Source: Alphaproteobacteria bacterium | GTDB lineage: Bacteria; Pseudomonadota; Alphaproteobacteria; Micavibrionales; Micavibrionaceae | DNA: 64,000 bases | Direction: 5' to 3' | NCBI GenBank assembly: GCA_021775965.1 | Contig: JAJFGV010000043.1 | Location: 1 to 64,000 of the forward strand | Shown: in pieces, positions 9,660 to 22,738 of the stretch | How the letters are laid out: each line of letters opens with the position of its first letter | How positions within the stretch are numbered: position 1 is the first letter of the stretch | Made by a program: the position numbers and the translations under genes | Notes under the pieces: model-generated | What the model was told of the DNA's origin: nothing | Seen by the model: the letters and a program-made list of their open reading frames with translations, nothing else | The model's database searches: none

Positions 9660-11219
9660 TTATTGGCTCTTGCAATCGCTTTGTGCGCTCACCAGACCCC
9701 AGCCATAGGTTTTATCATGACCTGGGGCACCAAGATCTTTGGCATTTTGTTTCAGAGATTCCACGATAAGGTCATGAGAAAGCGATCCATTGCGCAACAG
9801 GCTTTGTGCCGCCACAGCCAGAGCGTGTGGTACGGCGTAGGACGTGCCCGATTTATACGCGCCAGTGCCCCCTTCCTGCGCCGACCATATATCAACACCG
9901 GGGGCGGAAAAATCGATATAAGCACCACGATTGGCTTGCTTATAAACGTGCGAAGCCGCATCAATGGCGGTCACGGCAATCACATTATTAAGCGCAGCCG
10001 GATAAACCGGTGGTGCCTGCGCACCATTATTGCCGGCAGCTGCAAAAACCAGCCCACCTTTGGACGATGTTTTTTCAAAGACGCTGCTGAGAATGCGGTT
10101 CGGTTTATCACCGGCCAGCGAAATATTAATTAGCCGTACTTTGTTTTTAAGCATCCAGTCCAGCGCCTGCGCCACCGCTTCGGCCGTGGCGATATCATCG
10201 CCTTTTGGTGCTTTCCTTAGAACCGTCGCCGCGTAAAGCTTAGCACCCGGAAGCATCCCGTAATAGCCGCTTTCCGGTGCATTACCGATTAGAATGGAGG
10301 CAATCGCTGTGCCATGGGCACGGTCGGGCTGGCCTTTGTTATCAAGGAAGTTTTTGGCAACAATTTTCTGGCCCCTAAAAGCTGAATGGCTTTGATCGAT
10401 ATCGCCATCAATCAAACCAATAGAAAGTTTGTTGACACCCTTGAGGCAACCCGGTGCAGCAGGCCACTTAACCTTGGCCGGCGCATAAAGACGTGGCGCG
10501 CCGGAGGAATGGTAGTGGTGATTGCGGTCAATTTCTGCGCTCGGAAAGATCTTGCGCATGTCTCTAATGACATAGACAATATCGCCATCCAAAACATCAA
10601 GAACCATCAAAACATCACCGAAACTGGCAAGATTATGATGGCGTAGAATTGGATATTCTTTTTCTTTTGCGTAAGATTCAATCTCACTGGCGATTTCACG
10701 CGACGCCAAAATCAAAATCTCGCCAGCCTCAGCATCAACATCAACGGATGCTACAACGGGGTTTTCCAAACGCTCTTCCTCATAAGGGCAAAGACGAACA
10801 GTAATATCTGTGCGCTCAATAACCTTGTCGGTCCGACGTGCGTCAACCAGCACGATGCGATAGTGCTCACTATCATATATGGCTTTTTCCGTTGGGATTT
10901 TAACCATCAAGCGTGTTTCGCTTTTATTAAGAACCTGCAGAGGGAGCACAGTGCTGTTATCCGCCAATGCGGGCAGCACATTCTCAAGTGCGGAAAGCGA
11001 ACGACCATTGAGCGCCATCATATCGCCGGGACGGGCGCAGGCACTGGCAATACCGGTAATGACAGGTTTGTTGTCTTCACGATCAGGGGCGCGATCACGT
11101 GCAGGGTCCCGCGGCTGCACGGGCGCTGCACCTGGCGGCGGAGCATTGGGATCGATTTGCGCAAAAGATGGCGCCGAAACTGCAAAGATTAAAATCGTGA
11201 AAATAATGAGTGCGCGCAT
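9660..11219 (-). CDS. Secreted subtilase (S8 family) serine protease
   Basis: A 519-residue exported protease. Residues 1-20 form a signal peptide ending PSFAQ, followed by a Pro/Asp-rich linker and an N-terminal region of about 240 residues without a recognised domain. The catalytic domain shows Asp271 (GLIDGDID), His302 (AHGTAIAS), the oxyanion Asn in AAAGNNGA and Ser460 in GTSYAVPHA, so the triad is intact. It starts 1 base after the anti-sigma stop and is the last gene of the sigma/anti-sigma unit. A role in processing surface proteins of the island, or in sigma-pathway proteolysis, is inference. Confidence 0.9.
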   Translation of the reverse strand: MRALIIFTILIFAVSAPSFAQIDPNAPPPGAAPVQPRDPARDRAPDREDNKPVITGIASACARPGDMMALNGRSLSALENVLPALADNSTVLPLQVLNKSETRLMVKIPTEKAIYDSEHYRIVLVDARRTDKVIERTDITVRLCPYEEERLENPVVASVDVDAEAGEILILASREIASEIESYAKEKEYPILRHHNLASFGDVLMVLDVLDGDIVYVIRDMRKIFPSAEIDRNHHYHSSGAPRLYAPAKVKWPAAPGCLKGVNKLSIGLIDGDIDQSHSAFRGQKIVAKNFLDNKGQPDRAHGTAIASILIGNAPESGYYGMLPGAKLYAATVLRKAPKGDDIATAEAVAQALDWMLKNKVRLINISLAGDKPNRILSSVFEKTSSKGGLVFAAAGNNGAQAPPVYPAALNNVIAVTAIDAASHVYKQANRGAYIDFSAPGVDIWSAQEGGTGAYKSGTSYAVPHALAVAAQSLLRNGSLSHDLIVESLKQNAKDLGAPGHDKTYGWGLVSAQSDCKSQ

Positions 11220-11220
11220 A

Positions 11221-11814
11221 TCAATTCTCTACCTGCACGCTCTCAACAAGATCTCCGCGGCTCTTCAAAGCCTGAACTGCCTGCTGAATATCATCATCGG
11301 TTGAAAGGTGATAAACGCCAAGCGCTGACGGCCCTTCAACAATGCTCAAATTCAGACCAAGCAACAACCCGCGAATATTGGACTCAGTTGCATCCGGCGC
11401 AAAGGTCACGCTGATATCGGCTGCAGATGGCCCGCCCGCGGCAACCAATGTACCGTTTTGAAGCCAATGCGGCGCGACAATAACCGTCTGGATCATTAGC
11501 AGCACACAAGCCGCAACCGCTATCGCGCGCCATGTCCGGTTTTGCTCGCTCGCAATCTTTGACCGCGCCAGCGCAATTGGATCGCTTTTTAATTTTTCCT
11601 GTTCCAATGATTTTTGCAAACGCTTGAGGCCTAACTCGCCAGGAGAATTTTCAACCTCCTGCGCTTTGACTTCCTCGCGCATCCGTTCAAGAAAGTGGAG
11701 CTCCCCTTTCAAAGACGGATCATCTATGATCGCCTGCTCGACTTTATCTTTTTCTTTGCCTTCCAATGTTCCATTCACATAGAAGGGCAAAAGTTCCATG
11801 ATGTCCTTATTCAT
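11221..11814 (-). CDS. Anti-sigma factor (membrane-anchored)
   Basis: A 197-residue single-pass membrane protein. The N-terminus MNKDIMELLPFYVNGTLEGKE matches the LLPWYVNGTL-type opening of ECF anti-sigma factors, but the zinc-binding His/Cys motif is absent. A transmembrane helix follows at about residues 96-114 (IAVAACVLLMIQTVIVAP), and an extracytoplasmic domain of about 80 residues completes it. The ATG overlaps the sigma-factor stop by four bases, the usual arrangement for cognate pairs. Predicted to hold the sigma factor at 11811-12365 at the membrane. Confidence 0.85.
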   Translation of the reverse strand: MNKDIMELLPFYVNGTLEGKEKDKVEQAIIDDPSLKGELHFLERMREEVKAQEVENSPGELGLKRLQKSLEQEKLKSDPIALARSKIASEQNRTWRAIAVAACVLLMIQTVIVAPHWLQNGTLVAAGGPSAADISVTFAPDATESNIRGLLLGLNLSIVEGPSALGVYHLSTDDDIQQAVQALKSRGDLVESVQVEN

Positions 11815-12365
11815 GATCTTTCCTCCATACGGCCCTGAAGACAGTGCTTCATCGCCTTTTTGGCATGGAACATACGCGTTTTTACAGTGTTCTCAGGACA
11901 GTCCACGATCTTGGCAATTTCGCCGTAAGCCATATCCTCAAAGAAAGCGAGCTGCATCACAGAGCGGTGCGCTTCCTTAAGTGTTTCCAGACAATGGCGG
12001 ACATGGCCCGCATCATCTTGGCTAATCATGCACGAAACAGCATCCGGCGTTTCATCAACAATCTCCGGGAAATTATCTTCATCGATTAGCATTGGCTTTT
12101 TCTTTCGCATTCTATCCATCGTCTTGTAATAGGCTATTCCAAATAACCAGGTTGATACTTTAGACCTTCCTTCAAATGTTCCGGCCTTTCGCCAGACTTC
12201 CAGGAACGTCTCATTAAGTATGTCGGAGGCTTCGAAGGAATCGTTCAATTTTGACAAAATAAATCTGTAGAGGCGATTTTCGTATAGGCGGAAAAAATCT
12301 GCAAAGGCTTTCTCATCGCCCTTTGCGACCTGTTGAAGCAGTTCTACGGATTCTTTTTCGCTCAT
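11811..12365 (-). CDS. ECF-family RNA polymerase sigma factor
   Basis: A 184-residue sigma factor with region 2 (FFRLYENRLYRFILSKL, then DILNETFLEVWRKAGTFEG and STWLFGIAYYKTMDRMRKK) and region 4 (AFFEDMAYGEIAKIVDCPENTVKTRMFHAKKAM). The length is normal for ECF sigma factors and no extra domains are present. The cognate anti-sigma gene overlaps its stop. It follows the exported-protein gene at 12382 by 16 bases, so it is probably read from an upstream promoter. The shared TGAACC-N16-CGWCW promoters at 17092, 17861 and 18010 are its likely targets. Confidence 0.93.
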   Translation of the reverse strand: MSEKESVELLQQVAKGDEKAFADFFRLYENRLYRFILSKLNDSFEASDILNETFLEVWRKAGTFEGRSKVSTWLFGIAYYKTMDRMRKKKPMLIDEDNFPEIVDETPDAVSCMISQDDAGHVRHCLETLKEAHRSVMQLAFFEDMAYGEIAKIVDCPENTVKTRMFHAKKAMKHCLQGRMEERS

Positions 12366-12381
12366 TTTATGGGCCTATATT

Positions 12382-13587
12382 TTAAGGCATATTTATGGTG
12401 CGGGGGGTTGAGGCCCCAAGCACTTTTCCGCTTTTGCTAAAAGCGCGAACATGCCATTGGTAAGTACCGCCGGACTGCAAATGAGCCAACGATAGCCCCT
12501 GCAATGACAGCGTTAAATTCTTACCTGCGACCAGCTTGCCAGTCAGAGGCAAAACCGGATTATCTTTAAATATTTCCACCTGATAAGCATGCGCCCCTTC
12601 AATTGGCGGCCATGAAAATACGGTGTCCTTTTCAAGTGACGCGCCATTGACCGGACCAATTACATCCATATTGGCAGCAGCCAAACCGGATTTATCGGCA
12701 TTATCCTGCAAAACGAAATAACGCAGGATCGGAATTTCAAATCCGGTTGTGGTGTCCTGAACCGAAAACGATACAAGATGCAAACCGCTTAGCTTCGTTG
12801 GCAATGGCGGGCTGACAATACGGGCGCGGCCTTCGCCGGAGCTCACCAGCTGCTGCCTCACAACCTGCAGCACGCGGCGTCCACCGCCGCCAAGACTGGC
12901 TGAGGCATCAACAACGCGCCATTCGCCGCGCAAAACACCGTTATTGTTAAAGGATACATCGGCCACGGCATGCAGCTGGTCACCCTGACGCACAACATCG
13001 GTGCGCGCGGCATTTTCAAAGGAAAGCTCAATCCGGCGCACGGCCAAATCTCCGGCACCACCCAATGTTGCGAACAAACTGATGGCTCCCGGCAATGCTG
13101 TTTGCGTATCGGTGAATACCCTTGTGATTGTCGCTGTGCCCGGCGCTGCTCTTGAAATCATTTTGGCCAAAGCCGGAGTCAGCACAAGGGTTTCATTAAA
13201 AACCAATGTCTCGGATGCAGCTGGCGCAAGAATAACGCCGGTCTGACTGAGTAGGCCACCGAATGTGGCAACTGTCGCGCCATTAATGCGCAACTCCGCA
13301 CTGGCAGATGTCGTCGTTCTCGCGATAGTGAGTGCAGCCTCTGTTCTGTTCACCTGCCATGTTGCGCTGATCGAGGCTGGATTTTTGATCGACACACTGA
13401 CCATCGCTGGCGTCACGATCACGGTATTGACGTTAGCACGCGCCGCACCCGGTACGCCCGCTATGGACATGCCCATCACAGCCAACCCCAGAACCAGCCT
13501 AACGGCTAAATGAGAGCGGCGCCCTGACCCGAAAAACGGTAAAGACCTGGTAATTTGTTTCATCCTGTATTGCACTTGCGTTTCCAT
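12382..13587 (-). CDS. Exported protein with C-terminal fibronectin III-like region
   Basis: 401 residues: a long basic N-terminus, then a hydrophobic signal segment (LVLGLAVMGMSIAGVPGAARA), then beta-rich sequence. The C-terminal 95 residues (DVIGPVNGASLEKDTVFSWPP to YQWHVRAFSKSG) read like an Ig/FnIII-type sandwich used in surface or periplasmic binding. I recognise no catalytic motif. The ATG at 13587 has an excellent GGAGG site and lies inside the end of the upstream barrel gene, an 89-base overlap. A second ATG at 13563 also starts a plausible signal peptide. Probably works with the adjacent outer-membrane barrel. Confidence 0.75.
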   Translation of the reverse strand: METQVQYRMKQITRSLPFFGSGRRSHLAVRLVLGLAVMGMSIAGVPGAARANVNTVIVTPAMVSVSIKNPASISATWQVNRTEAALTIARTTTSASAELRINGATVATFGGLLSQTGVILAPAASETLVFNETLVLTPALAKMISRAAPGTATITRVFTDTQTALPGAISLFATLGGAGDLAVRRIELSFENAARTDVVRQGDQLHAVADVSFNNNGVLRGEWRVVDASASLGGGGRRVLQVVRQQLVSSGEGRARIVSPPLPTKLSGLHLVSFSVQDTTTGFEIPILRYFVLQDNADKSGLAAANMDVIGPVNGASLEKDTVFSWPPIEGAHAYQVEIFKDNPVLPLTGKLVAGKNLTLSLQGLSLAHLQSGGTYQWHVRAFSKSGKVLGASTPRTINMP

Positions 13588-15562
13588 TAAAGTCCTCCAT
13601 CGACCCTCTTACGGCCAAAGCCAGTCCAGGGCGGTTTGTTTGCGGGGCGAATAATGTCCATTCAGCCTCACTGTTTACAACGTGTCTATCAGGTGTGTCG
13701 CCACTTCCGGCCGCAAGGTTCAAATTATAATCAAATCGTGCTGTAACCTTGTCTGGAACCACAATTCCCGAGACGCCTAGCTGTAAATTCGTATTATATG
13801 TCGTGGTGGCAAAATCCTCGTCCCTGAAGCTGCCAACCTGGACCCCACCATTCAGATCCAGCCTGTCGCTCACCGTCCACCCCGCGTTAAAGCCCGTGAG
13901 GTTATTCACCGTATCGCTGGAAATATTGGCATGATCTTCATATTGCGACACGGTATGCGATCCCGACCAGTACCAACTGCTATAGCTGGTGCCGAATCCA
14001 AAAGTCGTAGAATCAGAAACGCTATTGGTATCGCCCGGTATATATCCGGCCGGTGTGTCCATCCGATCGGAATCAGAAACAAAGCCGGAAAAATTTATAT
14101 AAGGCGTGCCCAGAAACGAAAGGCTGCCTTCCTGCGGATTAAAATTATAGGACGTATTGAAATTAAGGCTGCGCAACCGGTCCGTCGGCACATTGGCAAG
14201 ATCATCAACATTATTGGTTTGATGCAGCAACTGCAGGCCGGCCGATAAAGAACCCCAGTAAATATTAGTGTAAGCGCTATAGGCATCATGATCGGCGGCA
14301 ATGCCCTGATTGGCCAGTGATGCGAAGAACGTGTCAATGCGTTCATATTTCCCGCCAACAACAATATCGGCAGTTTTATCGAGGAAAACCGGACTGTCAA
14401 AAGGGCGCGCTTCAACGCCAATGGAGTGCGCACCGCTGCTGTCCTCTTCAAGCGCGCCCGCACCATCACTATCATAGTCGGACATGGCATATTCACCGCG
14501 CAAAGTTAAACGCCCGCCAAAAAATCCTTTATCGGCAATCACGCCATAGCCTGAACCTTGTGGTCCTGTGCTGCCGCCGGCCACACCGAAACCACCATCA
14601 TCACCTTCACCATCATAATAAAGTCCGGTAATGCGCAGGCCATGCAGATCATTAGAAAACGGGCGGAATGACGTTGTCACACCTTCGAGACGGTCCTTGC
14701 TATCATGCAGCCCGCTAAAATCGCGCGCACCGGCCACCGACATGGGACGAAAAGCAAAGGTCGTTGCCTGCACGCGCTCGTCAGATGTCCCAACTTTTAA
14801 TGATGCGCCCCGGCGGTAAAAATTAGAAAACAAAAAGGAATTCACGCCTATATCGTGATGGCCCAATATCGCCTTGCCGCTTATTGTTTCGCCAGTATAG
14901 GCGGCAGTAATATCATACTCGCCAAGATCGACAGCATTGCCGGTCTGTGCCAGATTGCGATCGCTTTGCACTAGGTAATTGGCGCGGCCTGTGACCGACA
15001 AACGGCCGCTGCTGGCTTCACCGTTTAAATCACCGCCACCGGAAATAATCGTATGATTGGGCTGATCCGGCCCCAGATCTTCTTCGAACAATCTATTACT
15101 CGCTTCCGTCATGGTATCGGCGGAAAAGGAAGAACTGCGCAGCCAGCTTTCGGCTGCCGCAATTTCGCTTTGTGACGGCTCGGTTGTGGCTACATCACCC
15201 GATGCAACGGTTTCTCCCGTATTGCCGTCAATGTTAAAACTCCACAGGCCAATTTCTTCCGCTGATCCTTCAGATGATATTCGCAAGAGCCTTACAACAT
15301 GCACGCCTGATGATAACGGCTCGACCAGGCGATACAAAAAATCACCGCCATCCAGAGACAAAAGCGCGGTGATATCAATCCCGTCCAACTCAACACCGAG
15401 CGTCGTCAATTCCATCACATCCAGATCACCCGGCAGATCAATCCGCATTGGCGATCCCGCATCCGCAGGCGCATCAAAATTGGCTGACCAATCGGCAAAA
15501 GCCACGCCGGGAACCGACAAGGCTATAAAAGCGGCTGAATATATAAGCGATCTGAATCTCAT
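13499..15562 (-). CDS. Outer-membrane beta-barrel protein
   Basis: 687 residues with a signal peptide (MRFRSLIYSAAFIALSVPGVAFA), an Ig-like N-terminal domain of about 100 residues (DWSANFDAPADAG to LWSFNIDGNTG), an acidic linker, and about 500 residues of alternating, aromatic-rich strands with Gly/Asp/Ser turns typical of outer-membrane barrels. It ends near an aromatic (APLSFSR) rather than with the usual terminal Phe. I cannot assign a named family and see no TonB box or plug. It is followed by an overlapping exported-protein gene. A porin, or an export or assembly pore for the island's secreted proteins, is inference. Confidence 0.75.
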   Translation of the reverse strand: MRFRSLIYSAAFIALSVPGVAFADWSANFDAPADAGSPMRIDLPGDLDVMELTTLGVELDGIDITALLSLDGGDFLYRLVEPLSSGVHVVRLLRISSEGSAEEIGLWSFNIDGNTGETVASGDVATTEPSQSEIAAAESWLRSSSFSADTMTEASNRLFEEDLGPDQPNHTIISGGGDLNGEASSGRLSVTGRANYLVQSDRNLAQTGNAVDLGEYDITAAYTGETISGKAILGHHDIGVNSFLFSNFYRRGASLKVGTSDERVQATTFAFRPMSVAGARDFSGLHDSKDRLEGVTTSFRPFSNDLHGLRITGLYYDGEGDDGGFGVAGGSTGPQGSGYGVIADKGFFGGRLTLRGEYAMSDYDSDGAGALEEDSSGAHSIGVEARPFDSPVFLDKTADIVVGGKYERIDTFFASLANQGIAADHDAYSAYTNIYWGSLSAGLQLLHQTNNVDDLANVPTDRLRSLNFNTSYNFNPQEGSLSFLGTPYINFSGFVSDSDRMDTPAGYIPGDTNSVSDSTTFGFGTSYSSWYWSGSHTVSQYEDHANISSDTVNNLTGFNAGWTVSDRLDLNGGVQVGSFRDEDFATTTYNTNLQLGVSGIVVPDKVTARFDYNLNLAAGSGDTPDRHVVNSEAEWTLFAPQTNRPGLALAVRGSMEDFNGNASAIQDETNYQVFTVFRVRAPLSFSR

Positions 15563-15603
15563 TACCTATTTTCCTGAGGCTTCATAAAAGGGGTCCTCAT
15601 AAA

Positions 15604-15631
15604 ACCGGGCCAGTTTATAAGCTGGCCCGGT
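15604..15631 (-). terminator. Terminator or attenuator between two exported genes
   Basis: ACCGGGCCAG and CTGGCCCGGT form a perfect 10-bp stem with an 8-base loop. On the minus strand it ends in TTTTATG, 49 bases after the stop of the 15680 gene. The short T-run suggests partial termination, so the barrel and sigma genes could be read through at a reduced level. Confidence 0.75.
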
Positions 15632-15679
15632 CCCTAATTTATACCATAATCACCTGTTTTGTAAGGGTAAAAGTGATCA

Positions 15680-17020
15680 TTAATTTAATGGTGCACGCTT
15701 TGGCTTAGGCGCTGGTTCCGCAGGAGCCGCTTTACCCAAAGGAGCCCGAGCTGGCTTCGCCTGGAATTTTCCCAGCTTTGGTGTCTCACCACCATCGCTA
15801 TCTGCGTAACCACCGACTTGACCATTACCGCCCTGAAGCTGACCATTCAACTGAGGCACACAGCGGTGCTTATAGACAGCTGTGTCCTGAATATCCCACT
15901 GGCTCCAGTTGCCCATCTTGGGCTTAAAGCGCGCCTCAAGCTGCATGTTGTGGTTATAGGTCTTGTTGTTCAGGATCATCATGAATGAGTACTTATCCTC
16001 GGCCAGCATTTCCTTCAGCGGGAACTCAAAGTCGATATGAGCATTGTTGTTCCCATTTGCAGGATTTTTTATCAGATTTTTGCTCTCATAGTAATTCCCG
16101 TAGTCAGCATACTGATTACTTTTCGCAACAACGCGGAATTGAACATTCCCCAATTGATTACCGCCCATTGTGTAGTTAAAGCGGATCATAGGGTTTGCGT
16201 CCGGCAAGCACTTCCCATTGTAATGTGGAAGATTGGCCATGAAGTCCGCACCATTCAGTATAAACGGCTGATCGCCTTCGTCAAACTGGTTGGGCACACC
16301 GCCGCCACCTTGAAGCTGCGCATTGAGAACAGGAGTCTCATTGAGGCCCGGATCACCTTTATATTTTATCTGAATGGTGTGATCCTTGGTTTCATAACCG
16401 AGTGAGGCTTTGTTGGGGTTGTTCTTTTTCCCGCAAGCGCCGCTTAATGAAATTGGCCGCTGCAGAACAAGTTCCTGATCCTGTTGATAGAACTCAAGAT
16501 CCGTCCCATTAAACGCCTGACGGGCTTTTTCAAGTTCTTCCAAAGGATCAACACGCAGGGCCGGATGACCATTCTTGACCTGATTTAGGGGCACAGTAAA
16601 TACTTCGCCGCCGTATTCTGCATTAGGATAATCACTGTCTGTATAACCAGGCTTAGCGGTCTTGTCATAAAGCGCACTGGCCGAATTAATAGCCCCGCCG
16701 TCATCCATAATATTCACAGGGCCAAAAAAGTGCTTCGAACCTTTGAACATAACATTTGAGCCTTTACATTCGACAAGGCCAGCAACTTCAAACTGCATCA
16801 CAGTCGTTTTCACATCAAGGTCCAAAGCATTTAAATGCTTATTGGCTGATGCATTTTCAATGTTAATAATTGCTGCCATGCCCGTAAGGTCGATATCGAC
16901 ATTCTCGACATATTGAGAGCTAGCTTGCGCCGCATGAGCTGTTTGAGATGCTGCGCCCAGGCCAAGAGCCAGAACGGATGCACCTAGTATTAAAGTCTTT
17001 AGTGTTTTCGTCGTTTTCAT
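15680..17020 (-). CDS. Exported hypothetical protein
   Basis: 446 residues from the ATG at 17020, which has an AGGAGAAAG site; the frame extends to 17044 without support. A signal peptide (TLILGASVLALGLGAASQTAHA) precedes the mature protein. Four Cys are visible in the mature part. A Gly-rich LQGGGG/LQGGNG segment occurs twice (about residues 240 and 395), and the tail is Pro/Lys-rich. No known domain or catalytic motif is recognised. The predicted extracytoplasmic beta content and the N-terminal similarity to the 17177 gene product suggest a secreted structural or binding protein. Upstream lies an ECF-type promoter. Confidence 0.8.
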   Translation of the reverse strand: MKTTKTLKTLILGASVLALGLGAASQTAHAAQASSQYVENVDIDLTGMAAIINIENASANKHLNALDLDVKTTVMQFEVAGLVECKGSNVMFKGSKHFFGPVNIMDDGGAINSASALYDKTAKPGYTDSDYPNAEYGGEVFTVPLNQVKNGHPALRVDPLEELEKARQAFNGTDLEFYQQDQELVLQRPISLSGACGKKNNPNKASLGYETKDHTIQIKYKGDPGLNETPVLNAQLQGGGGVPNQFDEGDQPFILNGADFMANLPHYNGKCLPDANPMIRFNYTMGGNQLGNVQFRVVAKSNQYADYGNYYESKNLIKNPANGNNNAHIDFEFPLKEMLAEDKYSFMMILNNKTYNHNMQLEARFKPKMGNWSQWDIQDTAVYKHRCVPQLNGQLQGGNGQVGGYADSDGGETPKLGKFQAKPARAPLGKAAPAEPAPKPKRAPLN

Positions 17021-17091: not shown

Positions 17092-17118
17092 AGTCGTAAG
17101 GGGGGCGGGAAAGGTTCA
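17092..17118 (-). promoter_or_regulatory. ECF-type promoter TGAACC-N16-CGACT
   Basis: On the minus strand TGAACC (17118-17113) is followed after exactly 16 bases by CGACT (17096-17092), about 72 bases upstream of the 17020 start. The same spacing and boxes occur at 17861-17887 and 18010-18036. A second TGAACC at 17087-17092 lacks a matching -10 box. Confidence 0.75.
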
Positions 17119-17125
17119 AATAAAA

Positions 17126-17151
17126 AAAGAGCGCCGGGAAAAGCGCTCTTT
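17126..17151. terminator. Rho-independent terminator
   Basis: AAAGAGCGC and GCGCTCTTT form a 9-bp stem with an 8-base loop. On the minus strand it is followed by a run of T. It lies 25 bases beyond the 17177 gene stop, so it ends that transcript just before the promoter of the next gene. Confidence 0.9.
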
Positions 17152-17176
17152 TTATATAATTAATATGTGAACTACA

Positions 17177-17794
17177 CTAGCCTGCAGGCTCAACACAATG
17201 GCCTGAATAGATGTTGTTCAGTTCATTGTTTTCATTCACTTCACTTTTGGAATCGACAATAAACATGAAGCTTGCTTTGCCATTTTTCCAGGCCGAAGCA
17301 GGAATGTTGAAAAAGATTTTGGCCGGGGTAAAACCGGGACCAGCATCTGTATAGGAATCTTCCTGTGTTTGATCTGGATCTGCCGGATCAGCATTCGGGA
17401 AGATTACTTTGTTGTGGAAGTTTCCACCGGGTTTTGTGCCATTATTCTTAACGCTAGTCAGAACAACTTTTGCAACGCCGCCACCTTGATTGGAACCACA
17501 AAAGCCTGAGTTTGGCGCGCCCGGAAGTGGACCGACAGGATTAGGGGCCAAAGGCTCCAGATCTGTCCATTCTTTTGCACTCAAGCCACCGGGACCTGTT
17601 GGTGGCGGCGTATGGCCACGCTTTTGAATTGTACCGGCGGTAGGGGGTGTTGGGTCAGTTGGCGTTGGGGCCACATTAACATGTGGTTTTGTACGCTCGA
17701 ATTGTGCCTTGGCAGCTTCAGCTGAATCGGCCAGTAACACGCCACCCATCAATAAAGATGCAGCAGCAATCATGCTTAAAGTTCTCGTTTTCAT
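17177..17794 (-). CDS. Exported protein with CARDB-like domain
   Basis: 205 residues with a signal peptide (MKTRTLSMIAAASLLMGGVLLADSAEA), a Pro/Thr-rich linker (residues 40-90) and a C-terminal beta domain. The segment FMFIVDSKSEVNENNELNN has the D-x-N-x-V-x-E-x-N-E-x-N-N pattern of CARDB adhesion domains. Two Cys (CGSNQGG and the C-terminal HCVEP) could form a disulphide. It has its own ECF-type promoter and a strong terminator, so it is monocistronic. Probably a surface or periplasmic protein; partner unknown. Confidence 0.8.
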   Translation of the reverse strand: MKTRTLSMIAAASLLMGGVLLADSAEAAKAQFERTKPHVNVAPTPTDPTPPTAGTIQKRGHTPPPTGPGGLSAKEWTDLEPLAPNPVGPLPGAPNSGFCGSNQGGGVAKVVLTSVKNNGTKPGGNFHNKVIFPNADPADPDQTQEDSYTDAGPGFTPAKIFFNIPASAWKNGKASFMFIVDSKSEVNENNELNNIYSGHCVEPAG

Positions 17795-17860
17795 TGTATT
17801 TCTCCTAAAAGTTTAAGTTTTCAAAAAATCCTGACGCTCATTCGTCATTCATAAATTCTC

Positions 17861-17887
17861 TGTCGTAGAGACCATAGTAAAGGTTCA
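17861..17887 (-). promoter_or_regulatory. ECF-type promoter TGAACC-N16-CGACA
   Basis: On the minus strand TGAACC (17887-17882) and CGACA (17865-17861) are separated by exactly 16 bases. The -10 box is 66 bases upstream of the 17794 start, matching the promoter layout of the 17020 and 18106 genes. Confidence 0.75.
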
Positions 17888-18009
17888 AAAAAACTTCTTT
17901 TAAACGGACACTCTTATATATAGATAAAATAGGGCATCACAAAAGAAATAATAAAAACTAGATAAAGGGCCTTAATTTTTGTAATTTATTCAACGCTTTA
18001 AATTATTTT

Positions 18010-18036
18010 TGAACCAATCGGATAGTGCCTCCGTCT
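18010..18036 (+). promoter_or_regulatory. ECF-type promoter TGAACC-N16-CGTCT
   Basis: TGAACC (18010-18015) and CGTCT (18032-18036) are separated by 16 bases, and the -10 box ends about 69 bases before the ATG at 18106. This is the best match of the three to the common ECF pattern (GAAC at -35, CGTC at -10). Confidence 0.8.
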
Positions 18037-18105
18037 AATCATTACTTTCACGAGTAACTTTAAACTTTAATTTTTAACAACAAACTTTAACCAAGGAGAA
18101 AGACT

Positions 18106-18594
18106 ATGAAACGCACATTAACCCTCGCACTGGCAGCAATCTGCCTGATCGGAACGGCTTATACTGGCAATGCTGCATTGGCAGACAGCCCAACACAACT
18201 CAAAGCCCAAACGGCACCAACAACGCCAGGCTTTAAAGCAACCCCTAAACCATCATCACCGGTGAGCCCGGTTGGTCAAGGCGCTGCCGGTAACTTTAAG
18301 CCAAACCCTAAGGGTCCTATTGATGGTTTTACAACCAACATCCCTGCGGTTATGAGCTGCATGCACGGCTACAGCAAGACTGACGAGCATGTGAATGGCA
18401 ACGGCGCCGTTGATCGTATGGAGTGTACTTCACCTATTTTTGAATGCCCGCATAAAAGCAAAGTCAAAAATAACAACGGTGCACCTGCCAATGGTCATGG
18501 AATTGATATTGTAAAAATTCCTGTCGGACCTGTCGGTGACAGCAATCGCTTTAAGATCGAATATACCTGCACCTATTTTTGGGCACAGGGATAA
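18106..18594 (+). CDS. Exported Cys-containing hypothetical protein
   Basis: 162 residues with a signal peptide (LTLALAAICLIGTAYTGNAALA), a Pro/Thr/Lys-rich linker to about residue 75, and a C-terminal domain with four Cys (SCMHGY, MECTSP, FECPHK, YTCTYF), suggesting two disulphides. No known family is recognised. The linker composition and small size resemble the 17177 product, and both have the same promoter type. An AAGGAGAAAG site precedes the ATG. Likely a secreted surface component of the island. Confidence 0.78.
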   Translation: MKRTLTLALAAICLIGTAYTGNAALADSPTQLKAQTAPTTPGFKATPKPSSPVSPVGQGAAGNFKPNPKGPIDGFTTNIPAVMSCMHGYSKTDEHVNGNGAVDRMECTSPIFECPHKSKVKNNNGAPANGHGIDIVKIPVGPVGDSNRFKIEYTCTYFWAQG

Positions 18595-18618: not shown

Positions 18619-18648
18619 AACCGCTCCGGACTTCCGGGGCGGTTTTTT
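18619..18648 (+). terminator. Rho-independent terminator
   Basis: AACCGC-T-CCGG and CCGG-G-GCGGTT form an 11-position stem with one T-G wobble pair, closed by a 4-base loop and followed by six T. It lies 24 bases after the 18106 gene and overlaps the stop of the converging response-regulator gene. Confidence 0.9.
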
Positions 18649-19096
18649 ATTGGGCTAATTTTGGCAGCTTCACAGCACCAAGCCAGAAATCTTCTATAGA
18701 ACGTGCAATACTAACAAGCTTCGCCATATCACCGGGCTTCACGATATAGGCATTGGCATACGCCCTATAACAATTGGCCACATCCTGATCAGATTTTGCA
18801 CTGGAAAGCATAATCACCGGCATGCACTTTAGAACGTTATCCTCTTTAACGATCTTTAAAAGCTCTATGCCGGATATTTTGGGGATATTAACATCAAACA
18901 AGGCAAGGTCGGGAGTCGGCTGGTCAGCGTATTCCCCCTCCTGCCTTAAAATTTTTAGCGCTTGCTCGCCATTATCGGCAACAATCATATCAATTTCTGT
19001 TTCACATGACCCGAAAGCCTCTTTTGTAAGAAGAACATCCCCCGGGTTGTCATCGACAAGAAGGATACGCATCGACCTTTGATCAACAGCGCTCAT
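18647..19096 (-). CDS. Single-domain response regulator (Rcp1/CheY type)
   Basis: A 149-residue receiver domain without an output domain. The acidic pair Asp15/Asp16 (ILLVDDNPGD), phosphoacceptor Asp68 (LALFDVNIPK), the Ser of MLSSAK and Lys in YIVKPG are all present. The sequence resembles the Rcp1-type regulators that partner phytochrome-like kinases. Its ATG overlaps the stop of the adjacent histidine kinase by four bases, so the two form a cognate pair. The phosphate could pass to the Hpt protein at 20992-21381. Confidence 0.9.
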   Translation of the reverse strand: MSAVDQRSMRILLVDDNPGDVLLTKEAFGSCETEIDMIVADNGEQALKILRQEGEYADQPTPDLALFDVNIPKISGIELLKIVKEDNVLKCMPVIMLSSAKSDQDVANCYRAYANAYIVKPGDMAKLVSIARSIEDFWLGAVKLPKLAQ

Positions 19097-20961
19097 GCTG
19101 CTTCTCCTATCTTATTTTTGATGTCGGCTTTGGGCAGTAAAAAGTAGAATATGCTGCCTTCTCCAGCATTCGATTCAACCCATAGCCGACCACCCTTCAT
19201 TTCTACAATTTTTTTACAGACTGCCAGCCCTATACCTGTTCCTATATATTCTTGGTTGGTATGAAGTCGTTTAAACGGAGAGAAAATCTGTTGTTGGTAT
19301 TCTTCCTTAATCCCAATTCCGTTGTCCTTCACGGAAAAAATCCACTCGTCCTGTTTTTCAGTTACATCAACGTGAATTTTAGGAACATTGCCAGGATTTT
19401 GATATTTAATAGCGTTACAAACAAGATTTTGTATGAGCCTTGTAAAACGCACAGGATTACCGCTGATTACTGGAAGCGTACCAACGCTAATTTCTGATTT
19501 TGTTTCTTGTATCCTTTCAGATAGATTGTCGAGAACGACATCCATAATTGCTGAACAATCAACATCCTGAGACGTATCAACGTCATTGGTTATTCGTGAA
19601 TACTCAAGCAAATCATCAACAAGGGCCTTCATCCGCGCCGCGCCATCCACGCAAAACCCTAAATATTCTTTTGCCTTGTCGTCCAGCGTGCTTTCATATT
19701 TTTCTTTCAAGAGCTGAGAAAAGCTGGTCACCATGCGCAAAGGTTCCTGCAAATCATGGGCAGCAATATAAGCAAACCGTTCAAGCTCCTCGTTGGAATC
19801 GCTGAGTTTCTCGACTATATCCTCCAACTCTTTCTCTTTGGACTGATAGCCTTCCGTCATATGGTTTGCAAAATTAATAGCTCGGCGATTGGAACGGGAT
19901 AGCAAAATAAATATAGCCAAAAGCATAGCGTCAATCATCAGACCACCGAGCAAAATTGTCATTGGTTTGTTATTGCCCGCTTCCTTTCGAAATGATTTTG
20001 CGCTCCAAATATCAAAATTCCACATTCTGCCATAAAAACTAACATCAAATTGTTTTTTAAATAGGGGATTGGGATCAAAGTCTTTTTCATTTTCTGTATG
20101 TTCATTATATAAATCTGTATCTCCATCCGTAATCTGAATGCCGACATGACGCTTTTCTTTTTCAAGCGTCCCTGCCATTAATTTTTTAAAAACAAAGGGT
20201 GCATAGACCATACCAACAAAATTCTTTTGGCGCTCAACTTCAGTGCTATAGGTACCCCCCCTATAAAAAGGCGCATAAAACAAAAACCCCGGCGTTTTTT
20301 GCGCGTCCTGCACCAAAAAAATTGGCCCGGTAATCTGTGCTTCTCCACTATCGCGGGCATTCACGGCCGCTGTATGTCTGTTCGTCTCATGTGCTATATC
20401 AAGACCTACAGCCGCAGCATTTGTCTCAACAGGTTCAATATAAGTAATCGGCCAGTATTCATTTTTTTCGTGTGGCGGATGAATTTTATAATCCGGGCGA
20501 TCAAGATGTTGTAGCTCCAGATAACTCTTCATGCTTTCCGGCGTAACATAATGGATAACACCAATGCCGTTAATGCCGGGGTATTTTTTTTCAATTTGCA
20601 ATGTATCGCTAAAACGTTTCCATTCCTCGTAATCAATACCAAAACTTTGCGAATGAATGGCTGCCACCCCACCCCATAAGGCATCCTCATATTTTTGCAT
20701 ACGTTCGTATATCAACTCGGCGACTTGATCTGCTTCACGAGCAAAACGATTGCTTACTTTCTCATCCACCTGCTGCTTGGTAAAATACCAGGCACCAAAG
20801 GTCAGTAGCAATGAAAGGCCAATGACAACCCAATGCAACCAGTGCAGTTTTGCTGCCCTTTCAATGCTTTTTTTCTCCTGCAGGAGAGCATCCATATCGA
20901 TCAAAGCATCATTCATTCCTGGAACTTTCCTGGCTTTTATTGGAACGTTTTGTGCATCCAT
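19093..20961 (-). CDS. CHASE-domain sensor histidine kinase
   Basis: 622 residues: an N-terminal cytoplasmic stretch, a first membrane helix (about 46-62), a periplasmic CHASE-type sensor (about 70-330, including INGIGVIHYVTP and FLFYAPFYRGG), a second helix (about 337-358), a short coiled coil, then HisKA with His402 (AAHDLQEPLRM) and HATPase_c with N, G1 and G2 boxes (NLVCNAIKY, VKDNGIGI, GTGIGLAVCKK). It is orthodox, with no fused receiver. CHASE sensors bind small extracellular molecules; the ligand here is unknown. The receiver at 18647-19096 overlaps its stop, and the Hpt gene diverges 30 bases upstream. Confidence 0.92.
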   Translation of the reverse strand: MDAQNVPIKARKVPGMNDALIDMDALLQEKKSIERAAKLHWLHWVVIGLSLLLTFGAWYFTKQQVDEKVSNRFAREADQVAELIYERMQKYEDALWGGVAAIHSQSFGIDYEEWKRFSDTLQIEKKYPGINGIGVIHYVTPESMKSYLELQHLDRPDYKIHPPHEKNEYWPITYIEPVETNAAAVGLDIAHETNRHTAAVNARDSGEAQITGPIFLVQDAQKTPGFLFYAPFYRGGTYSTEVERQKNFVGMVYAPFVFKKLMAGTLEKEKRHVGIQITDGDTDLYNEHTENEKDFDPNPLFKKQFDVSFYGRMWNFDIWSAKSFRKEAGNNKPMTILLGGLMIDAMLLAIFILLSRSNRRAINFANHMTEGYQSKEKELEDIVEKLSDSNEELERFAYIAAHDLQEPLRMVTSFSQLLKEKYESTLDDKAKEYLGFCVDGAARMKALVDDLLEYSRITNDVDTSQDVDCSAIMDVVLDNLSERIQETKSEISVGTLPVISGNPVRFTRLIQNLVCNAIKYQNPGNVPKIHVDVTEKQDEWIFSVKDNGIGIKEEYQQQIFSPFKRLHTNQEYIGTGIGLAVCKKIVEMKGGRLWVESNAGEGSIFYFLLPKADIKNKIGEAA

Positions 20962-20991
20962 TATTGTTCACCCTATAAAAATTACAAGGAA

Positions 20992-21381
20992 ATGATTACA
21001 ATCAATGCTACCTTTCTAATTATGCTAGAAAGATCAGAAACTGTTCTCATTAATCCTCAAGCGATAGAATCCCTTAGGGAATCTATTAGCCCTGAACGTT
21101 CGACAGAAGTATTGCAGGAGTTTTTGTCTCTCTTAGAAGAACAGTTGGGCCTATTAAAACAATCATTCCAGGACCGTCAGAACACTGAATTTCAACGGCT
21201 CTGCCATAACATTACCTCCTCTGCCGGCATGGTGGGGGCTGTACGTTTACAAAACATGGCTTATGATATTGAGATTACATGTGAGAACGGTGATTATGAG
21301 GGTGCTTTTAACATGGCTGACACCTTGATGAGCTGCATTGATGAATCACTGGTAGCCATTAAGAAATATGTAGGGTCATAA
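20992..21381 (+). CDS. Hpt domain phosphotransfer protein
   Basis: 129 residues from the ATG at 20992. The Hpt histidine is His72 in CHNITSSAGMVGAVRL, inside a four-helix bundle pattern. The start is uncertain: AAGGA lies only about one base before this ATG, while the next in-frame ATG (21022) lacks a site. A longer open frame back to 20833 overlaps the divergent kinase gene and is not preferred. It probably relays phosphate between the receiver at 18647 and the regulator at 21404. Confidence 0.8.
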   Translation: MITINATFLIMLERSETVLINPQAIESLRESISPERSTEVLQEFLSLLEEQLGLLKQSFQDRQNTEFQRLCHNITSSAGMVGAVRLQNMAYDIEITCENGDYEGAFNMADTLMSCIDESLVAIKKYVGS

Positions 21382-21403
21382 AACCGGCAATATTCATTGC
21401 GCC

Positions 21404-22738
21404 CTAGGCAGATGGCTTTTTACGATATAGCGTCGCAGGACTGATCTTCAGATGATAGGCCGCCTTTTGAACATTGCCGTTGCAGGCTTCCAATGCATGC
21501 TTGATTGCCATTTTTTCAAGTTCACCGATAGGTATTATTTTCTGACCTGAGAATAAATTGGTTGTGGCAGAGCCGTTGTCTGAATATTTCTCTATCTCCA
21601 ATTCGGCGCCTTGAATCTCGTTTGGAATCATAGAAAATCTTACTACACCCCCATCCTCCATAACTGTAATGTTGCGCACAACATTTTGAATTTCCTTTGC
21701 ATTTCCCGGCCAGTGATAGCCTTCAAATATTTTTTTGACAGATTCTTCAAAACCCTGAAAATCCTTGTTTTCTTCCTTCCCGTATTTTTCCAGGAAATAT
21801 TGTGCCAAAAGAATGATATCTCCACCACGCTCTCGCAAAGGCGGCACCTCAACAGAAAGAACATGTAGATGATAATAAAGATCCTCACGAAAACGCCCGA
21901 CCTCTATTTCTCCAAGCGGATCCTTTGCTGTAGAACAAATAATCCTGACATTATCAACTTCACTTGCGCTTCGCCCTGTATCTTCAAAACGCTCCGTTTC
22001 AATAAACTGCAATAATTTTTTTTGTGCCTCATGATCTATATCGCAAACTTCGTCTAGAAATAACGTCCCTCCCTCAGCCCTCGACAAAACACCCTCAAGC
22101 CCAAAGATATTATGATCAATGTTTTCAGCCTGAATAGAAGAACAATTAAAGTGTATGAAAGGATCGGCATTTTGAGTACTAATTTCATGAATAGCCTGAG
22201 CACACAAAGACTTTCCAGCCCCCCTCTCTCCACGAATAAAAACAGGTTTATTACTGCCAGCAGCCGCCTCCAAAGTCTTATACAAAGCGCGCGAGGCGGT
22301 GGACTGGCCAATAAATCCATGAAAGTTTTCCTGCTCCAGAGATTTCTGGTACTCTGCAATCTGTTGATGAAGCTCAAAACATTGCAGAGCATTCTTAACT
22401 GTTGTTGTCAGCCTTTCTTTTTCAACGGGTTTTACAAGGTAATCTCTGGCACCATACTGTAGAGCCCTGGTTGCAGAGTCAGCAGCCTTCTCGCCTGTGA
22501 CAACAATAACCTCACAGCTTTTGCAAATACGATGTATATCCTGAATAAATTCTATCCCATCAACATCGGGCAGGTTTAAGTCGAGAAGAATAACAGCGGG
22601 TTGATCCCCCTTGATACTGTCAACGGCCTCATGGCCTGACGTTACCGCATGAATATCCAGCCCTTCATCTGATAGATATTCAGATAAAATAAGGCTCATG
22701 GCCGGATCATCTTCAACGATCAACGCTTTTCTTTTCAT
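21404..22738 (-). CDS. NtrC-type response regulator lacking the GAFTGA loop
   Basis: 444 residues: receiver (phosphoacceptor Asp53 in LLDLNLPDVDG, Lys103 in LVKPV), AAA+ domain with Walker A 170-177 (GERGAGKS) and Walker B 223-230 (GGTLFLDE), arginine finger region RFREDLYYHLHV, and a Fis-type helix-turn-helix at the end (GNVQKAAYHLKISPATLYRKK). Between FG at 212-213 and the Walker B only about ten residues remain, so the sigma-54-contacting GAFTGA loop is deleted. It therefore probably binds DNA and oligomerises but does not remodel sigma-54 polymerase. It is convergent with the Hpt gene. Confidence 0.92.
   Translation of the reverse strand: MKRKALIVEDDPAMSLILSEYLSDEGLDIHAVTSGHEAVDSIKGDQPAVILLDLNLPDVDGIEFIQDIHRICKSCEVIVVTGEKAADSATRALQYGARDYLVKPVEKERLTTTVKNALQCFELHQQIAEYQKSLEQENFHGFIGQSTASRALYKTLEAAAGSNKPVFIRGERGAGKSLCAQAIHEISTQNADPFIHFNCSSIQAENIDHNIFGLEGVLSRAEGGTLFLDEVCDIDHEAQKKLLQFIETERFEDTGRSASEVDNVRIICSTAKDPLGEIEVGRFREDLYYHLHVLSVEVPPLRERGGDIILLAQYFLEKYGKEENKDFQGFEESVKKIFEGYHWPGNAKEIQNVVRNITVMEDGGVVRFSMIPNEIQGAELEIEKYSDNGSATTNLFSGQKIIPIGELEKMAIKHALEACNGNVQKAAYHLKISPATLYRKKPSA

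Follow-up and report, generated by a model that had tools for sequence, protein, structure and literature searches.

The window, a stretch of 64,000 nucleotides analysed at its full length, contains what is probably, judged from sequence comparison, the promoter set of a local and self-controlled regulon of an ECF sigma factor. Five perfect matches to the motif TTGAAC-N17-CGWC-N2-A, and no more, occur in the window, all within one 6-kb locus. Three of them are intergenic and two, P2 and P3, lie on the sense strand inside genes. Comparison of codon use in related loci shows that P2 and P3 are under selection as DNA, beyond what the encoded proteins need.

Genes of the sigma locus

The order of genes on the minus strand is secreted 446-aa protein, barrel-like protein, Ig-like protein, ECF sigma factor, anti-sigma factor and S8 subtilase. 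Two further genes for secreted proteins diverge from the stretch 17795-18105. The predicted genes are:

9660-11219, minus strand: exported S8 subtilase with a propeptide-like domain of its own in the structure model (Peptidase_S8, 119.4 bits, cut-off 21.8)
11221-11814, minus strand: anti-sigma factor, 197 aa, overlapping the sigma gene (zf-HC2 below cut-off, 16.5 of 22.2 bits)
11811-12365, minus strand: ECF sigma factor, 184 aa (Pfam Sigma70_r2, 48.2 bits, cut-off 24; Sigma70_r4_2, 47 bits, cut-off 25.7)
12382-13587, minus strand: Ig-like exported protein, 401 aa, first gene after P2 (a weak label, Ig_Rha78A_N being below cut-off at 18.1 of 27.4 bits)
13499-15562, minus strand: barrel-like outer-membrane protein, 687 aa, the gene that holds P2 (the label is a reading of the sequence)
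15680-17020, minus strand: secreted 446-aa protein of no known family, the putative target of P1
17177-17794, minus strand: secreted 205-aa protein (CARDB-like below the Pfam cut-off, 18.2 of 22.7 bits)
18106-18594, plus strand: secreted 162-aa protein of no family

The sigma factor scored 85.8 of the 236.15 bits required by the RpoE equivalog TIGR02939 and, of the best 25 among 101 NCBIfam models, none but the general ECF superfamily TIGR02937 was above its cut-off. The zf-HC2 domain was just above cut-off (22.9 bits) in the homologous anti-sigma factor of locus L025. In the model of the anti-sigma factor (mean pLDDT 80.8, pTM 0.35), the N-terminal part is helical and is followed by a long helix, which we read as holding the membrane segment, and a periplasmic beta-alpha-beta-beta-alpha-beta domain. 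In the subtilase, D271, H302 and S460, which we take to be the catalytic residues of the S8 family, were invariant in 13 of 13 aligned sequences (alignments without L051, L052, L056 and L061, which had a partial S8 frame or none, and, for the modelled alignment, without L053, whose masked bases were read as X). The best PDB match of the subtilase model was pro-subtilisin with its propeptide in place. The barrel-like protein matched no Pfam family at cut-off; its homologs are present in relatives. The stretch beside the locus, 18647-22738, encodes a receiver protein that stands alone, along with a CHASE histidine kinase and a response regulator of the sigma-54 type.

Motif sites in the window and in the genome

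The five sites are:

17093-17118 (17092-17118 with the fifth -10 base, CGACT), minus strand: P1, TGAACC-N16-CGAC, 72 nt before the start codon (17020) of the 446-aa gene
17862-17887 (17861-17887 with the fifth base, CGACA), minus strand: TGAACC-N16-CGAC, 67 nt before the start codon of the 205-aa gene
18010-18035 (18010-18036 with the fifth base, CGTCT), plus strand: TGAACC-N16-CGTC, 70 nt before the start codon of the 162-aa gene
13697-13722, minus strand: P2, TGAACC-N16-CGAC, inside the barrel-like gene on its sense strand, 109 nt before the Ig-like gene that opens the sigma operon
12222-12247, minus strand: P3, TGAACG-N16-CGAC, inside the sigma gene on its sense strand (codons 40-48), 407 nt before the anti-sigma start codon

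An earlier note on this DNA had described the three intergenic sites as promoters of one architecture. Each is indeed an exact TGAACC-N16-CGWCW with 16 bases between the boxes, and the distances to the start codons, counted from the last CGWC base, are as similar as it had claimed. The set was incomplete, the minus-strand site P2 and the variant P3 having been overlooked. That chance was unlikely, as had also been argued, agrees with the 4 exact matches of TGAACC-N16-CGWC in the window against a mean of 0.23 over 100 shuffles (largest 2), with the clustering at the locus and with the recurrence in relatives. A scan for sigma-70 promoters was uninformative (13 found, 12.2 in shuffles).

In the genome from which the window comes (2.93 Mb, 122 contigs), plain TGAACC-N16-CGWC matched 13 times and its reversed control 5 times. 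The strict motif, in which A or T and then T precede TGAACC, had 4 matches, all at the locus, and 0 in the reversed control; a T directly 5' of TGAACC was found in 0 of the 9 plain matches off the locus. The looser pattern TTGAAC-N17-CGWC gave five extra, scattered matches (5 of the 10 with that spacing), four of them inside ORFs of at least 100 aa on either strand and one with the downstream A. With free spacing this pattern matched 49 times against 40 in the reversed control, which is near background. The earlier note had looked to a genome-wide scan for a regulon upstream of exported-protein genes; such a regulon was not supported, the strict matches being confined to the locus. The regulon thus looks local, as far as motif counts can tell, and not like a genome-wide set of exported-protein genes.

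Intergenic sites and their targets

The 446-aa gene was found in 5 of 135 genomes of the order, the same five that carry the anti-sigma gene (5 of 142) and the sigma gene (including the sigma genes of G090 and G097). The motif stands 63-73 nt upstream of all five copies, and no copy was found that had kept the gene and lost the site. In one of these genomes, G035, the 446-aa gene lies on a different contig from the sigma gene, and its site had already come up in the pattern search, ahead of any search for the target. The 205-aa gene occurs in 2 of 135 genomes of the order; in the counterpart of its site in L050 the box is TGAACT. The site of the 162-aa gene is found at the same position in L050/L024.

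Transcription from P1 may also continue past the 446-aa gene and include the barrel-like gene. Between these two genes, at 15602-15634, a long G+C-rich inverted repeat was seen by eye that could be a leaky terminator; it is absent from the listing of the terminator scan, which overall found no more such sites than in shuffles. A terminator-like hairpin at 17153-17124 on the minus strand stands behind the 205-aa gene, and its T-tract runs into the TTGAACC box of P1. In the same genus (L024:10946-12088, corresponding to L050:5460-6900) there is an extra secreted gene between the 446-aa and barrel-like genes with an exact TGAACC-N16-CGAC site of its own; this gene is missing from the window.

From 24 loci, 70 sites were collected: 19 in sigma genes, 13 in long barrel-type ORFs, 30 with a target gene and 8 without. 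Among the 30 are a copy of P2 in an ORF that is truncated by the end of its contig (L062) and a match in a sigma gene (L110). Of the 30 target-gene sites, 28 have an A three bases downstream of CGWC, a base that had not been searched for (binomial P 8e-14 at 0.28, overstated because the loci are related). At P3 this A is the constrained third base of an ATA codon. The -10 box is CGA in 80 % and CGT in 20 % of the 30 sites. A crude signal-peptide rule makes 23 of the 30 targets look exported, compared with 100 of the 319 ORFs in these loci (P 1.6e-6).

Distribution of the locus

A scan of named genomes yielded 17 relatives at 42-97 % identity (L050-L066), from records labelled Micavibrio, other Alphaproteobacteria, Methylophaga, Pseudomonas aestuarii and a delta-labelled MAG. 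Scans of the class and the phylum added six genomes at E 1e-60 or better (L106-L111). L078 and L079, being the same as L051 and L052, were kept out of the counts, L055 is the contig of L025, and L080-L084 and L092 come from the same genomes as L106-L111, which were counted once. An anti-sigma homolog was present beside the sigma gene in 18 of 18 loci searched, and in most long loci the barrel-like and Ig-like homologs precede the sigma gene. The barrel match is weak (24-25 %) in L058, L065 and L066; in L064 and L111 the sigma, anti-sigma and subtilase genes are present and no Ig-like or barrel gene was detected. The MAG CAJXUS01 carries two copies of the sigma locus on different contigs (L059 and L060), both with P2 and P3.

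Within the genus, G003 has a sigma gene of 97 % identity and all of its 4 strict matches at the same locus, and G001 and G002 have no sigma match at E 1e-20, no locus target and one scattered strict match each. About one scattered strict match is also common in other genomes that have no sigma gene. The earlier note had proposed the motif as that of the regulon of the adjacent ECF sigma factor and had suggested a comparison with related genomes. The recurrence of the motif in orthologous loci supports this proposal, from which we infer that the sigma factor reads the sites.

Intragenic sites P2 and P3

The frequency of the intragenic sites was compared with that expected after codon resampling, in which the codon usage of each locus was applied, the protein was kept and a site anywhere in the gene was counted. 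P3 was found in 20 of 25 sigma orthologs against 1.0 expected and P2 in 14 of 18 barrel homologs against 0.31 expected, leaving 5 and 4 sequences, respectively, without the site. Methylophaga sp. OBS4 (L057) carries P2 and lacks P3. After thinning to less than 75 % sigma identity, P3 remained in 13 of 18 (P 1e-17) and P2 in 10 of 13 sequences (P 4e-19), and at less than 65 % identity in 6 of 10 (P 1.5e-7) and 5 of 8 (P 6.6e-9). Independence of related sequences is assumed in these resampling and binomial P values, which give orders of magnitude only.

Across 18 sigma orthologs aligned by codon, codons agree about as often as expected at nearly all positions (mean excess 0.05). Codons 39-49 contain a fixed set: AAA (15/15), TTG (15/18), AAC (16/16), GAT (17/17), GAA (13/13), GAC (17/18) and ATA (14/15). 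The remaining spacer codons are free, leaving two constrained blocks, and the sixth box base of P3, the G of TGAACG, is fixed by the Asp codon. A lone codon outside P3, that of Phe21 (TTT, 11/11), is equally fixed. In a sliding scan of 10 codons, the eight top windows of the sigma gene (18 sequences) fell on P3, with a best excess of 0.37 (z 3.6), and those of the barrel-like gene (10 sequences) fell on P2, with a best excess of 0.43 (z 5.0); L058, L065 and L066 were outside the barrel scan, yet were counted as P2 misses in the resampling. Smaller peaks were found at codons 110-119 of the anti-sigma gene (excess 0.14, z 4.1) and codons 150-159 of the S8 gene (0.16, z 3.5). The peak of the Ig-like gene (excess 0.31, z 4.7) is at its start, where the barrel-like gene overlaps it, and was taken as a positive control of the scan. 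An overlapping gene as the cause of the constraint on P2 and P3 was rejected, as the signal lies in two blocks with a mostly free spacer.

Individual substitutions also separate the DNA from the protein. A change of Leu to Met with TGAAC kept was seen in L062, L109 and L110 at P2 and in L084 at P3. Conversely, L082/L108 keep the P3 amino acids KLND...ADIL in other codons and have lost the motif. Among 34 more distant ECF genes of 23-44 % identity (L017-L023, L067-L074, L085-L091 and L094-L105), none has TGAAC at the aligned place of P3 (alignment read by eye). In 11 of the 34, TGAACN-N16-CGAC occurs elsewhere in the ORF, so that a single intragenic match means little alone; seven of the 11 (L094-L100) are mutually similar, with about 40 % identity, and in these the match falls on the first codon of the reading frame as called.

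Proposed regulation

In the model proposed here, the sigma factor (11811-12365) would recognise TTGAAC[C/G]-N16-CGWC-N2-A, and the intergenic copies would drive the genes of exported proteins. P2 would drive the genes of the Ig-like protein, sigma factor, anti-sigma factor and subtilase, a positive autoregulation. A transcript from P3 would carry the anti-sigma and subtilase genes without a full-length sigma gene, amounting to negative feedback, and active sigma factor would then make more inhibitor than sigma. A signal would reach the sigma factor through the membrane anti-sigma factor and the subtilase. The sites, their recurrence in relatives and the selection on P2 and P3 are the observed part of this model; the reading by the sigma factor, the direction of feedback and the route of the signal are inferred.

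Alternatively, P3 may be another DNA or RNA element, for example a decoy or pausing site for the holoenzyme or a translational operator, with the intergenic sites and P2 being promoters. This is unlikely, although P3 has TGAACG rather than TGAACC, lies 407 nt from the anti-sigma gene and includes a spacer codon, GAA, that is also constrained (13/13). Its boxes, spacing and downstream A are identical to those of the intergenic sites, its constraint falls in two blocks with most spacer codons free, and a working sigma-E promoter is described inside rpoE of E. coli in the available part of PMC8595263. It is quite improbable that the sites belong to another sigma factor or DNA-binding regulator, of which the neighbouring sigma gene would be merely one target. 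The genome does hold further ECF-like genes, with 7 candidates at a first look (1 at E 1e-20 or better). Against this reading, AAC and CG boxes are of the ECF type (PMC8103513, as far as its account is available), and the sites, the sigma gene and the target co-occur, the locus target being absent from G001 and G002 together with the sigma gene.

Conservation of the encoded residues, and the matches elsewhere in 11 of the 34 distant ECF genes, would be compatible with P2 and P3 being by-products of protein conservation and codon preference. We regard this as very improbable in view of the 20 of 25 and 14 of 18 sites seen against 1.0 and 0.31 expected, the loss of the site with the same residues in L082/L108 and the retention of TGAAC through Leu-to-Met changes; the codon scan, moreover, did not show equal constraint across the rest of the genes checked. 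The probability that the three intergenic matches arose by chance is negligible: the boxes are short and strict matches are scattered in genomes that have no sigma gene, but clustering, recurrence and the unsearched downstream A all speak against it. Reading by the adjacent sigma factor, with P2 and P3 as promoters, is the preferred explanation.

Periplasmic domain of the anti-sigma factor

With the C-terminal domain of the anti-sigma factor as query, Foldseek ranked POIA1, an I9-type inhibitor (E 0.013), and a subtilisin propeptide (E 0.026) first and second, with no match at E 0.001 or better. Structure comparison of the domain (VIA) gave a best Z of 8.1 (rmsd 2.5, 63 aligned) against 7.8 for unrelated folds, unrelated ferredoxin-like folds scoring nearly as high as propeptides. 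No propeptide or I9 family was matched in Pfam, and nothing in a PDB sequence search with the anti-sigma profile, at E up to 1 in both cases. Profile comparison of the domain with the pro-domain of the neighbouring S8 protein gave E 0.0059 (probability 6 %) and, in its global version, E 0.095. Because the sequence support is weak, the propeptide-like domain is put forward as a hypothesis.

Tentatively, and with the odds rather against it, the neighbouring subtilase may dock on this domain as on its own propeptide. Release or cleavage, set by the barrel-like, Ig-like or secreted proteins, would free the sigma factor, and P3 would keep the anti-sigma factor and subtilase in excess. If true, this would represent a class of proteolytic signalling in which protease and inhibitor-like domain are divided between an enzyme and an anti-sigma factor.

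Comparison with known ECF systems

The predicted system shares with canonical autoregulated ECF systems, in the available text of PMC8103513, an AAC-type -35 box, a CG-type -10 box, an overlapping anti-sigma gene and sites upstream of its own operon. The 184-aa sigma factor has sigma2 and sigma4 domains only, a putative cognate anti-sigma gene is in the same operon, the canonical AAC at -35 and CGT at -10 correspond to TGAAC and CGWC (CGA being commoner here), and positive autoregulation is predicted from P2, which lies 109 nt ahead of the gene that opens the sigma operon. What sets it apart from the canonical systems is the intragenic position of the sites that serve its own operon and the close neighbourhood of the remaining regulon.

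The nearest counterpart of P3 is rseA P3 of E. coli, a sigma-E promoter inside rpoE that drives rseABC with a 228 nt leader (PMC8595263, in the part available). Common to both, if P3 acts as predicted, would be a promoter within a sigma gene, a transcript with the anti-sigma gene and an additional promoter for the whole operon. Here, in contrast, the sigma subfamily and the boxes are others, and the site occupies an early part of the gene, which leaves 407 nt to the anti-sigma start, compared with the 228 nt leader. The co-encoded protease is a subtilase, whereas DegS and RseP serve in E. coli. P2 resembles the situation of Caulobacter sigV, an autoregulated ECF gene with its promoter inside the upstream gene cabp (PMC13171946), in that the ECF gene would be driven from upstream coding sequence. 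The sigV boxes differ, and in the accessible account of sigV no promoter inside the gene itself was seen. In group ECF54, as far as its description in PMC8999054 is available, the ECF gene is also near a subtilase gene and proteolysis has been proposed; that group, with subtilase and CHAT proteins in its context, is described without an anti-sigma factor, whereas here an anti-sigma gene overlaps the sigma gene.

ECF boxes, autoregulation and a promoter inside a sigma gene are thus already known. No description of this locus, with its two intragenic sites kept as DNA across distant Proteobacteria, was found in the open-access literature. The locus offers a case of probable regulatory sequence held by selection inside coding DNA across distant Proteobacteria, at a locus GC of 39 to 71 %. 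The constraint is visible as a fixed set of codons, TTG AAC GAT ... GAC ATA, and nested sigma promoters may in this way be findable from sequence alone. In Micavibrio-labelled and other bacteria, the motif provides a predicted promoter for an ECF system that is so far uncharacterised. The wiring that it suggests, with activation from P2, restraint from P3 and a subtilase beside a propeptide-like anti-sigma domain, would be directly testable by synonymous recoding.
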